Assembly: GCF_028657945.1 (NCBI RefSeq)
Contig: NZ_CP059693.1
Location: forward strand, 1,302,001 to 1,366,000
Source of the DNA: Thalassomonas haliotis
GTDB lineage: Bacteria; Pseudomonadota; Gammaproteobacteria; Enterobacterales; Alteromonadaceae
DNA length: 64,000 nt
Reading direction: 5' to 3'
The notes below the pieces were generated by a model. It had not been told where the DNA came from and did no database searches. It saw only the letters and a program-made list of their open reading frames with translations. Of this stretch, positions 34,303 to 38,514 are shown piece by piece. How positions within the stretch are numbered: the stretch's first letter is position 1; each line of letters starts with the position of its first letter. Position numbers and translations under genes: made by a program.

Positions 34303-34773
34303 ATGAAAATTTATCGCGTCATCACTTCAACTGCTTTATTGCTCTTTACCTTGATGGCTTGCGCCCATGACGGTAAAGTTGCTGTAGGTGTTATCAAGCC
34401 AGATGACTTGTTGGCTCAGTATGCTGATTTTAGTCAGGCATATCAGCAGGCTGAATTAACCGGGCAGGAATTGGCACAAGTGAAGGCTTGGCCGGATAAA
34501 CTTGAGGTAACCACCTATTTTGCTACCTGGTGCCATGATAGCCAGCGTGAAGTGCCGAAAATGCTGAAAATACTGGCGTTGCGGCCGGAGCTTAGTTCAC
34601 AGTTAATCGCTTTAGATATTAACAAGTCGGATCCGGACGGAAAGGCGGCCGATGCCGGGATCGCTTTTACTCCGACTTTTGTCGTCACCCTTGAGGGGCG
34701 GGAAATTGGCCGAATTGTCGAGCGTCCTGAAAGCACATTGGTGACCGATATCAACGCTATGTTAGCTATTTAA
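34303..34773 (+). CDS. Thioredoxin-fold lipoprotein with a single active-site cysteine
   Basis: A 156-aa lipoprotein: the signal peptide ends at LMAC (lipobox, Cys20). The thioredoxin-like core has VTTYFATWCHDSQREVPKML, where the usual CxxC is CHDS, so only the first cysteine is kept. The cis-proline region is FTPTFVV. A dithiol oxidoreductase mechanism is unlikely. A monothiol (glutathionylation, peroxidase-like) or non-catalytic binding role is possible. The DUF-like N-terminal 45 residues are helical. It lies 66 bases after tyrA and has its own ribosome-binding site. Confidence 0.8.
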   Translation: MKIYRVITSTALLLFTLMACAHDGKVAVGVIKPDDLLAQYADFSQAYQQAELTGQELAQVKAWPDKLEVTTYFATWCHDSQREVPKMLKILALRPELSSQLIALDINKSDPDGKAADAGIAFTPTFVVTLEGREIGRIVERPESTLVTDINAMLAI

Positions 34774-35144: not shown

Positions 35145-37739
35145 ATGAGGTCACGACTTTATTTGGCATTGCCCTTACTTTGTATAGGTATCATGTCTGC
35201 TGCACAGGGAAGTAACTTTATTGCCCCTGATCTGCTTGCAAATAATAATGCCCTGCCCAAGCTCAAAGCAATAACAACCACATTTGATGACAGCCAAAGC
35301 GGGGCGGATTATTTCCAAACCCTGGCATCGCGCACTGACTTTGAAGCCCTGGCGGCACGGAGCGATCAGCCCGGTGCACAAAGTATCCGCGAAGTAAAAT
35401 ACCTGATTATGGATGTCAATACCGACAATCCTAAGCTGTATTTTTTTAATACCGAACGCTACCCCTATCATTATGCCTTTGCTTCTGAAGGTTTAGGTTA
35501 TAGCGGCACGCTGTCGGCGTTTAATTCAACGACATATTTCCATGATAACCGGGCACATCTGGCGGGCTCTATTCTCGCCCATGATCATTTCAGCTCGCCA
35601 GAAGGGCCTGATGGCCTGTATACGGTGCAATTCTGGCCGGTAGACCCGGTAACTCCGCAGTTAACGGATAAAGCCTATAAAATGATCGCTGAGCAAATGA
35701 CCTTTGCCCGGGAGCAGATCCGCTATTATCCTGCCAGTGATGTGCAGCTGGATATTTATGACAAGAATCTGGCCTTTTTTGAATCGGCCGCCGTGCCGGT
35801 GATCAAAAGCGAGCAGCTGTTTGCCAATATCGATTTTTCTATCCTTAACCAGGGGCAAGGTTACGGTCGCTTACGCGTGATTAATCCCGGGGATCCGGTG
35901 CCTTCGGTCAGCGATGTAGTCATTTATACCTATATCCCCAATGACCTGGCCCATGTCGCCGGTATCATTACCGATTCGCCGCAAACGCCTTTGTCCCATA
36001 TCAACCTTAAAGCCAAGCAAAACAATACCCCCAATGCCTATATGCGCGATGCGGTCAATGACCCCCAGGTAGCGCCGTTAATTGGCGAGCTGGTGAAATA
36101 TGAAGTGACCGGGGACGGCATAGTGTTGACCGCCGCGACCCAGGATGAGGTGGACAGTTGGCTGGAGTCGGTACGCCCGGATCCGCAAACGCCGCTATCG
36201 GATCTTACGGTGACCGAACCGGCTTTATTAAGTGAGCTTGGCAATAGCGACTGGGTCGGTTTTGGTGCGAAAGCGGCGAATGTCGCTGAGCTGGCCAAAG
36301 CCTTAAGGGAGCTGGAAAGCGAATATGGCCATCAAATGGTGCCCCGAGGTTATGCGGTGCCGTTTTCCATGTATAACGATTATATGAAGCTGCCCCGCTG
36401 TCAGGAGCTGGAACAGGATGATTCGGGCAACCTTGTGCCCGATGGCAAGTACCGCGCCTTGTGCGATGCTGACCGTGCGACAAGGGTGAGAAATACCGAC
36501 AGCAATGCCTTATCGGTTTCCCTGTTTAACCAGGCTGCGCCAATTAGCCTGCAAGCCGGCAGTCAGGATATGGAACTGGTGCTGGATAATGCCAATGGCC
36601 TGGTGCTGTTTATGCGCGATGTTACGAATGAGCGCTGGTTGCTTAATCCGCTGCCGTTCACTGATACGCTATTAAGTGCTTCCGGCAGCAGCGAATACCG
36701 GGAATTGACGGTTAATTATCTGCGGGAAAACGATAAAAAAACGGTGACATTTTCCGGTCACACTGATTTTGAGCTGGAAATTTTTGTCCTGGCCTTATGG
36801 CAGGTCGAAGCAAATCTTGCCATCACGCAAACCCGGAAGTTGCCGGAAGATTACTATGTTGAACTGTCTTATTTTCAGCAAATTGAAAATATCATGGCGG
36901 ATGAAAGCTTCCAGGCTAGCCCGGATGTACGCGATGCCCGCTTAGAAGACTTCCGCAAAGAAGTGAAAAAAGGTGAAGTGACGGCGTCAATGCATGAAAA
37001 GCTGGAAGCCATGCGTTTATTCTGGGATCCACAGGGAGCCCCGTACAGCAAAAACATCCGGTTGCGCTCCAGTACCAATAATGAAGATCTCGCCGGTTTT
37101 AACGGCGCCGGTTTATACGAGTCCAATACCCATAAACCCGATGAAGGGGATATTGCCGACTCGGTGAAAAAAGTTTGGGCCAGTTTATGGACCCACAGGG
37201 CTTTTGAGGAGCGCCGCTTTTACCGTATCGATCATTTTAAAACCTACATGGGGGTTTTGGTACACGAAAGTTACGGTGATGAACAGGCCAACGGCGTTGG
37301 TGTGACCAAGAACATTTATGATGCCAACTGGGAAGGTTATTATGTCAATGTCCAGCACGGTGAAATTTCCGTCACCAACCCTGAGCCGATCATTACCTCA
37401 GAAGGGGAAGTCAGCTCGGTACCGGATGAATTTTTACTGGCGCACTTGTTGGCCGGGGACGACCCCTACAACGCTGAGCACTGGTGGTGGGCGCAGCAAT
37501 ATATCCGCCACTCCAATGTCGAAACCCTGTACGACCAGCCGGTGACGACGGAAAATGTGCTTACCGAAGCAGAAACGGTGCAATTAAGGCGTGCGATGCA
37601 GGCGATACAGAAACATTTCTGGCCTATCTATGAAGGGGATCGCAGCTTTGCCATGGATATTGAGTTTAAGATCACTGCTACCGATGACGGTTCCCGGGGC
37701 CATATGGAAATAAAGCAGGCAAGACCCTGGATTGATTAA
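35145..37739 (+). CDS. Exported glucan-water-dikinase-like / PEP-synthase-like protein
   Basis: An 864-aa protein with a clear signal peptide (residues 1-22, AAQG/S). Domain order: N-terminal unknown region (~25-230), a phosphohistidine swivel-like segment with TPLSHINLKAKQNNTPNAY (His285), then an ATP-grasp PPDK_N-type domain. The latter has FGAKAANVAEL (Lys376), RLRSSTNNEDLAGFNGAGLYE (Arg641 to Glu659) and the closing IKQARPW. His domain before ATP-grasp, and the 'RSS.N.EDLAG..GAGLYES' wording, match glucan water dikinases rather than PEP synthase; the PEP-binding TIM barrel is absent. Known dikinases are intracellular, so export is striking. Substrate and phosphate donor unknown. Other label: PEP/pyruvate-binding domain protein. 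Confidence 0.8.
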   Translation: MRSRLYLALPLLCIGIMSAAQGSNFIAPDLLANNNALPKLKAITTTFDDSQSGADYFQTLASRTDFEALAARSDQPGAQSIREVKYLIMDVNTDNPKLYFFNTERYPYHYAFASEGLGYSGTLSAFNSTTYFHDNRAHLAGSILAHDHFSSPEGPDGLYTVQFWPVDPVTPQLTDKAYKMIAEQMTFAREQIRYYPASDVQLDIYDKNLAFFESAAVPVIKSEQLFANIDFSILNQGQGYGRLRVINPGDPVPSVSDVVIYTYIPNDLAHVAGIITDSPQTPLSHINLKAKQNNTPNAYMRDAVNDPQVAPLIGELVKYEVTGDGIVLTAATQDEVDSWLESVRPDPQTPLSDLTVTEPALLSELGNSDWVGFGAKAANVAELAKALRELESEYGHQMVPRGYAVPFSMYNDYMKLPRCQELEQDDSGNLVPDGKYRALCDADRATRVRNTDSNALSVSLFNQAAPISLQAGSQDMELVLDNANGLVLFMRDVTNERWLLNPLPFTDTLLSASGSSEYRELTVNYLRENDKKTVTFSGHTDFELEIFVLALWQVEANLAITQTRKLPEDYYVELSYFQQIENIMADESFQASPDVRDARLEDFRKEVKKGEVTASMHEKLEAMRLFWDPQGAPYSKNIRLRSSTNNEDLAGFNGAGLYESNTHKPDEGDIADSVKKVWASLWTHRAFEERRFYRIDHFKTYMGVLVHESYGDEQANGVGVTKNIYDANWEGYYVNVQHGEISVTNPEPIITSEGEVSSVPDEFLLAHLLAGDDPYNAEHWWWAQQYIRHSNVETLYDQPVTTENVLTEAETVQLRRAMQAIQKHFWPIYEGDRSFAMDIEFKITATDDGSRGHMEIKQARPWID

Positions 37740-37962
37740 CCCTTTTAAAGAAGAGCAGAAGGAAAGTGTAAGGGTTTATTGAATTGCCGGTCACTGGTTT
37801 GCAGGCAATTCACTTTCCTGATAACTTTCTGGTGAGCGAAAAGGGGTCCTGAGTCAGTGCGGGGTCCCTTATTTGTAAAGAGTTGTTAAAAGGTAAAAAT
37901 ACCATCCCAGCCACCGGCAGTGCATGCCTAAGCAGGGAACGAATATCAAAAGGACCATATTG

Positions 37963-38514
37963 ATGAAAACATTCAAGCAAAGCCTGCTAACGGCTTGTTT
38001 ATTTCTCGGCGTAGCGCAAACGGCCATAGCGACTTGCCTGCCGGAAAAAATTTATCTGACCCGGCATGCGGAAAAGCTGATTGAAGAAGGCAACCGGGAT
38101 CCCGATTTGTCGGTTAAAGGCCAGGCCCGTGCCAAGCGTATTGCCGGTATGTTTGAAAACATTAAGGTGGACCACTTGTTGTCGACGCCTTATAAGCGTA
38201 CCCAACAAACCCTGATGCCGTTAAGCAAGGCGAAAAAGCTGGATATCACCGAATATGATCCGCGCAAAGGCCGCGAGTTTGTCGAGCGGCTGAAAAATGA
38301 CTATTGCAAACAAACCCTGGTGGTTTCCGGGCACTCCAATACCGTACCGAATATGCTGCAGGCACTCGGGATCAAGTTTGAGGTGAAAGTCGGCGGTTAT
38401 ACCTTTAAGCACCAGCCGAGCATTATTTTATCGGAAGCGGAATTCGGCCAGTTATTTGCCGTGAGCTTTAACCAGGGCAAGCCGGAATTGGAAGTATTGA
38501 GCAGCAACGGTTAG
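37963..38514 (+). CDS. Exported histidine phosphatase (SixA/PGAM-like)
   Basis: A 183-aa exported member of the histidine phosphatase superfamily. Signal peptide (~1-22, ending AIAT). The catalytic motif is TRHAEK (phospho-accepting His); the second catalytic His is in VVSGHSNTVPNML, with Arg in STPYKRTQQT. The small domain without insertions resembles SixA, which removes phosphate from phosphohistidine. ATG 37963 begins the signal peptide; the frame is open back to 37924. It lies 223 bases after the exported dikinase-like gene, same strand. Substrate unknown. Confidence 0.85.
   Translation: MKTFKQSLLTACLFLGVAQTAIATCLPEKIYLTRHAEKLIEEGNRDPDLSVKGQARAKRIAGMFENIKVDHLLSTPYKRTQQTLMPLSKAKKLDITEYDPRKGREFVERLKNDYCKQTLVVSGHSNTVPNMLQALGIKFEVKVGGYTFKHQPSIILSEAEFGQLFAVSFNQGKPELEVLSSNG

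Follow-up and report, generated by a model that had tools for sequence, protein, structure and literature searches.

A predicted exported dikinase of the PEP-synthase/GWD superfamily and its neighbouring exported histidine phosphatase in Thalassomonas haliotis

Introduction

What would an ATP-grasp dikinase do once it has left the cytoplasm, and which protein would work together with it? This question is raised by a locus in the gammaproteobacterium Thalassomonas haliotis (RefSeq assembly GCF_028657945.1), where a dikinase-like protein of 864 aa with a signal peptide is encoded beside an exported histidine phosphatase. The locus lies in a stretch of 64,000 nucleotides of contig NZ_CP059693.1 (positions 1,302,001 to 1,366,000 of the forward strand), hereafter the window, which sits in a single 6.45-Mb replicon; coordinates without a locus name are positions in the window (Table 1). 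Based on the analysis of this protein, its homologues and their gene neighbourhoods, it is probably an exported dikinase with an intact catalytic site, belonging to the superfamily that includes phosphoenolpyruvate (PEP) synthase and glucan water dikinase (GWD), paired with an exported phosphatase that would reverse the phosphorylation. The dikinase is very probably exported and enzymatically competent, and its functional coupling to the phosphatase appears quite likely.

Domain organization and conservation of the dikinase-like protein

The open reading frame (ORF), whose product begins with MRSRLYLALPLLCIGIMSAAQGS, had been described in a preliminary description as combining a signal peptide, a segment around His285 (PLSHINLKAK) and a C-terminal ATP-grasp domain, which is borne out by the sequence and by a Pfam match to PPDK_N (residues 597-861, E 1.6e-18, 67.5 bits against a cut-off of 27). 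His285 precedes the ATP-grasp domain (about residues 360-864), in agreement with the GWD-like domain order originally proposed. The main part of the ATP-grasp domain carries the motifs R641SSTNNED, D838IE840F and Q858ARP, with RSSTNNEDLAG at residues 641-651 and GAGLYE at 654-659, and could be aligned to the structures of PEP synthase and rifampin phosphotransferase (RPH). Its GAKAANVAEL segment aligns with GGKGANLGEM of PEP synthase 8a8e, and a profile alignment (E 7.5e-42) placed K376, R641, E840 and Q858 on the ATP-grasp domain of the same enzyme. No C-terminal pyruvate/PEP-binding domain was matched by Pfam in the dikinase, which ends 3 residues past the ATP-grasp match, and Pfam scans assigned no family to its N-terminal domain (about residues 55-230). 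Moreover, the ATP-grasp domain is interrupted by a lineage-specific insert (about residues 416-573) that is lacking in most homologues; it holds a beta-sandwich that resembles the ADAMTS13 spacer in Foldseek, and the same region of the homologue at locus L087 matches PF05986 (E 4.4e-8).

A scan of a genome collection revealed at least 574 candidate stretches encoding relatives, the best 80 of which were taken as the homologue set; conservation was counted in the 79 homologues from other genomes, which represent about eight phyla and 75 of which cover the C-terminal region with E840, Q858 and R860. Full-length homologues, including the N-terminal domain, show 30-57% identity over the best segment and were found in Gammaproteobacteria, Methylococcaceae, Verrucomicrobiota, Acidobacteriota, Planctomycetota, Myxococcota, Fibrobacterota and Bacteroidota. 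H285, K376, R641, S642, S643, T644, N645, E647 and D648 are invariant in all 79 homologues, and E840, Q858 and R860 in the 75 that cover them, so that both the histidine and the ATP-grasp ligands (K376, R641, E840, Q858 and R860) singled out for checking are retained. All 36 family members of the set tallied with Pfam match PPDK_N, whereas 7 match the PEP-utilizers family PF00391 and 6 match GWD1_pHisD (PF22973), with best E-values of 5.7e-6 and 1e-4, respectively. A phosphohistidine intermediate is likely. The alternative of a catalytically dead scaffold, whose fold is kept as a structural surface protein, would fit a location without the cytoplasmic ATP pool, but a dead enzyme should lose its ligand set, whereas the complete set is invariant across phyla and kept in a sister family (see below), which makes this alternative highly improbable.

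The AlphaFold model of the dikinase (mean pLDDT 83.6) further supports the fold, with Foldseek matches to RPH 5hv3 (3e-12), HpeI 9goj, PEP synthase 2ols and PPDK 1kbl. The best structural matches are rifampin phosphotransferases, and although no NCBIfam equivalog was found for the dikinase, weak matches to RPH, PigC and RedH were. Together with a signal-less Streptomyces homologue encoded between an ATP-grasp gene and a major facilitator superfamily (MFS) transporter, these matches may suggest an ATP-dependent phosphotransferase or ligase, RPH- or PigC/RedH-like, that alters or inactivates a secreted small molecule outside the cell. However, RPH, PigC and RedH are cytoplasmic and have the opposite domain order, and the anchoring and domain fusions of the family (next section) better fit surface macromolecules; a small-molecule enzyme of this kind is thus considered unlikely.

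The Streptomyces homologue (L063:5881-7893, plus strand), which has no evident signal peptide, came from a plasmid search that returned only two distant matches, both from Streptomyces; its locus is possibly a biosynthetic cluster.

Evidence for export

When a simple hydrophobicity rule was applied to the 75 homologues whose 5' ends are complete, 67 showed a signal-like N-terminus, 30 of them with a lipobox; the rule is crude, being also positive for 43% of neighbouring genes. Because of this crudeness, stronger evidence for export is provided by the lipoboxes and by the type IX sorting, lamin-tail, SprB and EF-hand domains: a type IX sorting domain ends both long Bacteroidota homologues scanned, lamin-tail and SprB domains are fused in the Bacteroidota homologues scanned, and EF-hands are present in others. 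Signal-like N-termini are also found in the partner phosphatases, lipoproteins and PAP2 proteins described below. Twin-arginine export, which could carry a pre-folded and ATP-loaded enzyme, was ruled out for the window protein, which lacks the motif.

Pairing with an exported histidine phosphatase

The next gene on the same strand had been described as an exported SixA/PGAM-type phosphatase. Its position and export signal were confirmed, with the Met at 37963 as the likelier start (183 aa; AAAGGA upstream; signal peptide MKTFKQSLLTACLFLGVAQTAIA), and the protein matches His_Phos_1 (E 2.1e-11, 44.3 bits against 21.7). The SixA/PGAM assignment holds at the superfamily level only, since the protein scores below the SixA cut-off of TIGR00249 (27.9 against 74.5 bits); it is also below every other NCBIfam equivalog cut-off.

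The co-occurrence asked for in the preliminary description is borne out by the genus, by a distant gammaproteobacterium and by Flavobacteriaceae. Dikinase orthologues (86-91% identical) occur in all three other genomes of the genus and in none of the remaining genomes of a 60-genome family/order sample, and in all four genus genomes the exported phosphatase (84-93% identical in the other three) adjoins the dikinase downstream on the same strand. In the distant gammaproteobacterial locus L087, the phosphatase is adjacent in convergent orientation. Each of the 11 flavobacterial loci in the main survey has it upstream on the same strand, 19-64 nt away at nine loci and about 220 nt away at the other two, and the pair is kept in Flavobacteriaceae while the outer neighbours change. 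A 199-genome sample that partly overlaps the main survey gave the phosphatase next door in 5/5 flavobacterial genomes with the long form, and in genome G950 the dikinase neighbour is the one His_Phos_1 gene in 1.6 Mb. A shorter form of 630-730 aa, without an adjacent phosphatase, is present in five flavobacterial genomes. In a dikinase tree built by a quick method and having several long branches, phosphatase-paired members form two clades, and unpaired clades lie between these. Because these clades are separated and their phosphatases are separate lineages, independent and repeated recruitment of the phosphatase is suggested. Retention of the catalytic residues in all 79 homologues and of the pair throughout the genus is more than chance.

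Other partners of the dikinase family

Clustering of the neighbouring genes at homologue loci revealed four partner patterns in all, the histidine phosphatase being one. A Cys-rich lipoprotein with invariant cysteines and a conserved GGNHH motif (such as L149:5154-5819, plus strand) adjoins the dikinase in 22 Fibrobacter and myxococcal/delta loci, in up to three copies; it has no Pfam family, and its confident AlphaFold model has no structural relative in PDB. In Methylococcaceae, a neighbouring gene encodes an FG-GAP repeat protein. The phosphatase pairing is one among several partner arrangements in the family. The recurrent lipoprotein might point to an extracytoplasmic phosphorelay, in which a partner protein would receive phosphate from the dikinase and the phosphatase would act, like SixA, on phosphohistidine; SixA-type enzymes are reported to remove phosphohistidine (PMC7948535). 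Such a relay is nevertheless rather unlikely, considering that the lipoprotein is not adjacent to the dikinase in the genus of the window, no single partner protein spans all clades, and the phosphatase falls short of the SixA cut-off.

An exported PAP2 phosphatase, whose fold differs from that of His_Phos_1, is adjacent in Fibrobacter loci L152 (8003-8791, plus strand), L155 (7925-8713, plus strand) and L156. With the many homologues from marine metagenome-assembled genomes (judged by record titles), this would be compatible with phosphorus or nucleotide scavenging, whereby extracellular ATP is consumed and exported His_Phos_1 or PAP2 phosphatases free phosphate for uptake. However, simple nucleotidases would be enough for this purpose, the swivelling domain with its invariant His285 points to transfer to a specific acceptor, and the recurrent neighbour clusters that were scanned contained no recognisable phosphate-uptake gene, which leaves scavenging with a low probability.

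A sister family and the phosphate donor

A second dikinase family of about 990 aa shows the same domain order, motifs and ligand set, with signal-like N-termini in all 20 proteins sampled. At 18 of 20 loci, an exported protein of the Beta-lactamase2 family is encoded next to the dikinase, in most cases with an overlap or a gap of a few bases. Genes of the TLC ATP/ADP-transporter type (PF03219) were also found near the sister-family genes. This cassette was observed among loci L167-L186 (for example L172:1087-2379 and L186:6611-7894, both on the plus strand). In a class-wide sample, PF03219 was present in 30 of the 33 genomes with the 990-aa family versus 37 of the 336 others, with a Fisher p of 3e-22 that is only indicative because the genomes are phylogenetically non-independent and were assigned to the family by reading scan results; in 20 of the 33 it lies within 5.5 kb of the dikinase gene. 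Characterised TLC members come from parasites and plastids, those of free-living bacteria being uncharacterised (PMC5381601). A TLC transporter, should it work outwards, is a possible ATP source for the sister family.

A proposed mechanism and its weighing

The sequences themselves establish the signals for export, the order of the domains, a complete set of ligands and the conserved pairing. On this basis, the C-terminal ATP-grasp domain would bind ATP outside the cytoplasm, and His285 on the swivelling domain would accept a phosphate (the beta-phosphate by analogy). The swivelling domain would then swing and hand the phosphate to an acceptor outside the cytoplasm, bound by the N-terminal domain, the beta-sandwich insert or both, and the neighbouring histidine phosphatase would strip it from the acceptor or from His285, resulting in a reversible modification. 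The acceptor may tentatively be a surface or extracellular glycan; a protein is a doubtful candidate and a small molecule an improbable one.

Several observations weigh against this reading of an exported dikinase and phosphatase pair. First, ATP is not expected outside the cytoplasm. The donor puzzle raised in the preliminary description is real, and the TLC genes suggest an answer near the sister family and not in the window genome: PF03219 is absent from this genome and its three genus relatives, so that the TLC link does not explain the donor of the window protein and a family-wide TLC explanation was ruled out. Second, the window dikinase itself is below the Pfam threshold for PF00391 and PF22973, no CBM45-type or other carbohydrate-binding family was matched by Pfam in it or in the 36 family members, and the signal rule is crude, as mentioned above. 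Third, the genes are 185 bp apart in the window, which leaves co-transcription uncertain; a promoter/terminator scan of the gap gave 4 promoter-like sites, compared with 7.3 expected by shuffling. Finally, of 37 related genomes from other genera, 16 carry phosphatase homologues and none of these has the dikinase, which indicates that the phosphatase has other roles, and since most dikinase clades also lack the phosphatase, the pair is not obligate. The isolated homologues and the gap would both suit a merely coincidental neighbourhood. This is, however, very unlikely: adjacency by chance is about 0.1-0.3% per genome (from gene counts), yet the arrangement is seen in two clades whose phosphatases belong to separate lineages and persists within Flavobacteriaceae despite the changing surroundings. 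The exported phosphorylation pair originally proposed is supported in part: the export signals, GWD-like domain order, intact motifs and pairing stand, and the ATP-grasp insert, which that proposal had left out, has to be added.

Table 1. Features of the dikinase and phosphatase locus (window positions)
Feature	Position	Strand	Basis
Predicted exported dikinase-like protein, 864 aa	35145..37739	+	ORF; PPDK_N; genus orthologues; distant full-length homologues
Predicted Sec-type signal peptide, residues 1-22 (MRSRLYLALPLLCIGIMSAAQG)	35145..35210	+	sequence; no twin-arginine motif
Conserved N-terminal domain, about residues 55-230	35307..35834	+	homologue pattern VKF...F.N...H..F...TY; confidently modelled
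Phosphohistidine-type (swivelling) domain, about residues 231-345	35835..36179	+	PF00391/PF22973 matches among family members
His285 codon, presumed phosphorylated histidine	35997..35999	+	His in 79/79 homologues
Lys376 codon, in GAKAANVAEL	36270..36272	+	Lys in 79/79; aligned with conserved Lys of PEP-synthase ATP-grasp
Beta-sandwich insert inside ATP-grasp, about residues 440-565	36462..36839	+	beta-strands in AlphaFold model
ATP-grasp (PPDK_N) main part, residues 574-864	36864..37736	+	Pfam; conservation; alignment to solved structures
Predicted exported histidine phosphatase (branch 1)	37924..38514	+	His_Phos_1; RHAEK and GHSNT motifs
Catalytic His of RHAEK, phosphatase	38065..38067	+	sequence; inside PF00300 match

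Directly upstream of the dikinase, an exported thioredoxin-like protein (34303-34773, plus strand) is encoded and kept across the genus. A separate PEP synthase-type ORF of 799 aa is present elsewhere in the window genome.

Comparison with known systems

The window protein belongs to the PEP-synthase/PPDK/GWD superfamily and is not classifiable as GWD, PEP synthase or RPH. Like plant GWD/PWD, it has a phosphohistidine-type domain ahead of a C-terminal ATP-grasp domain, and some family members match PF22973 weakly; the likeness concerns the domain order and motif wording described for GWD. Unlike GWD, it is predicted to be exported instead of plastidial and has a different N-terminal domain; because no starch-binding module was matched in it, it is not filed as GWD. 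For potato GWD, the histidine is given as His992 (PMC12892837). With PEP synthase and PPDK it shares the ATP-grasp ligand residues and a related swivelling domain, but it differs in its reversed domain order, the lack of a C-terminal pyruvate/PEP-binding domain and its predicted export. RPH provides the closest solved fold for the ATP-grasp domain (5hv3), whereas RPH has the ATP-grasp domain first and the His domain last, and the window dikinase scores far below the RPH cut-off of NF041857 (26.7 against 999 bits).

The phosphatase shares the RHAEK/GHSNT catalytic motifs with SixA, PmrG/Ais and other branch-1 phosphatases, from which it differs by its equivalog scores; PmrG, which has the same fold, is described in NCBIfam as a lipopolysaccharide core heptose(II)-phosphate phosphatase. 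That ATP-dependent kinases can act outside the cytosol is known from the CotH and Fam20C-type secretory kinases, which have a protein-kinase-like fold and no phosphohistidine step.

Implications

A search of the open-access literature yielded nothing relevant on an exported GWD-like family, and the main text of two Fibrobacter envelope-proteome studies does not mention a dikinase. A large exported family across many bacterial phyla is apparently undescribed. Bacterial phosphorylation outside the cell is assumed to be restricted, in part because ATP is confined to the cytoplasm; this assumption becomes testable with an exported family that has an intact ATP site, is conserved across phyla and is repeatedly paired with exported phosphatases. 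In addition, the strong link between the sister family and TLC genes hints that nucleotide transporters also have a function in free-living bacteria, in which they are uncharacterised (PMC5381601). As a speculative and doubtful generalisation, exported GWD-like dikinases and phosphatases might, in many phyla, use ATP to phosphorylate surface or extracellular polymers reversibly, in parallel with the GWD/SEX4 starch cycle of plants, with a TLC-type transporter exporting ATP in the 990-aa branch. If glycans are indeed the target, this would represent a new modification of surface polymers.

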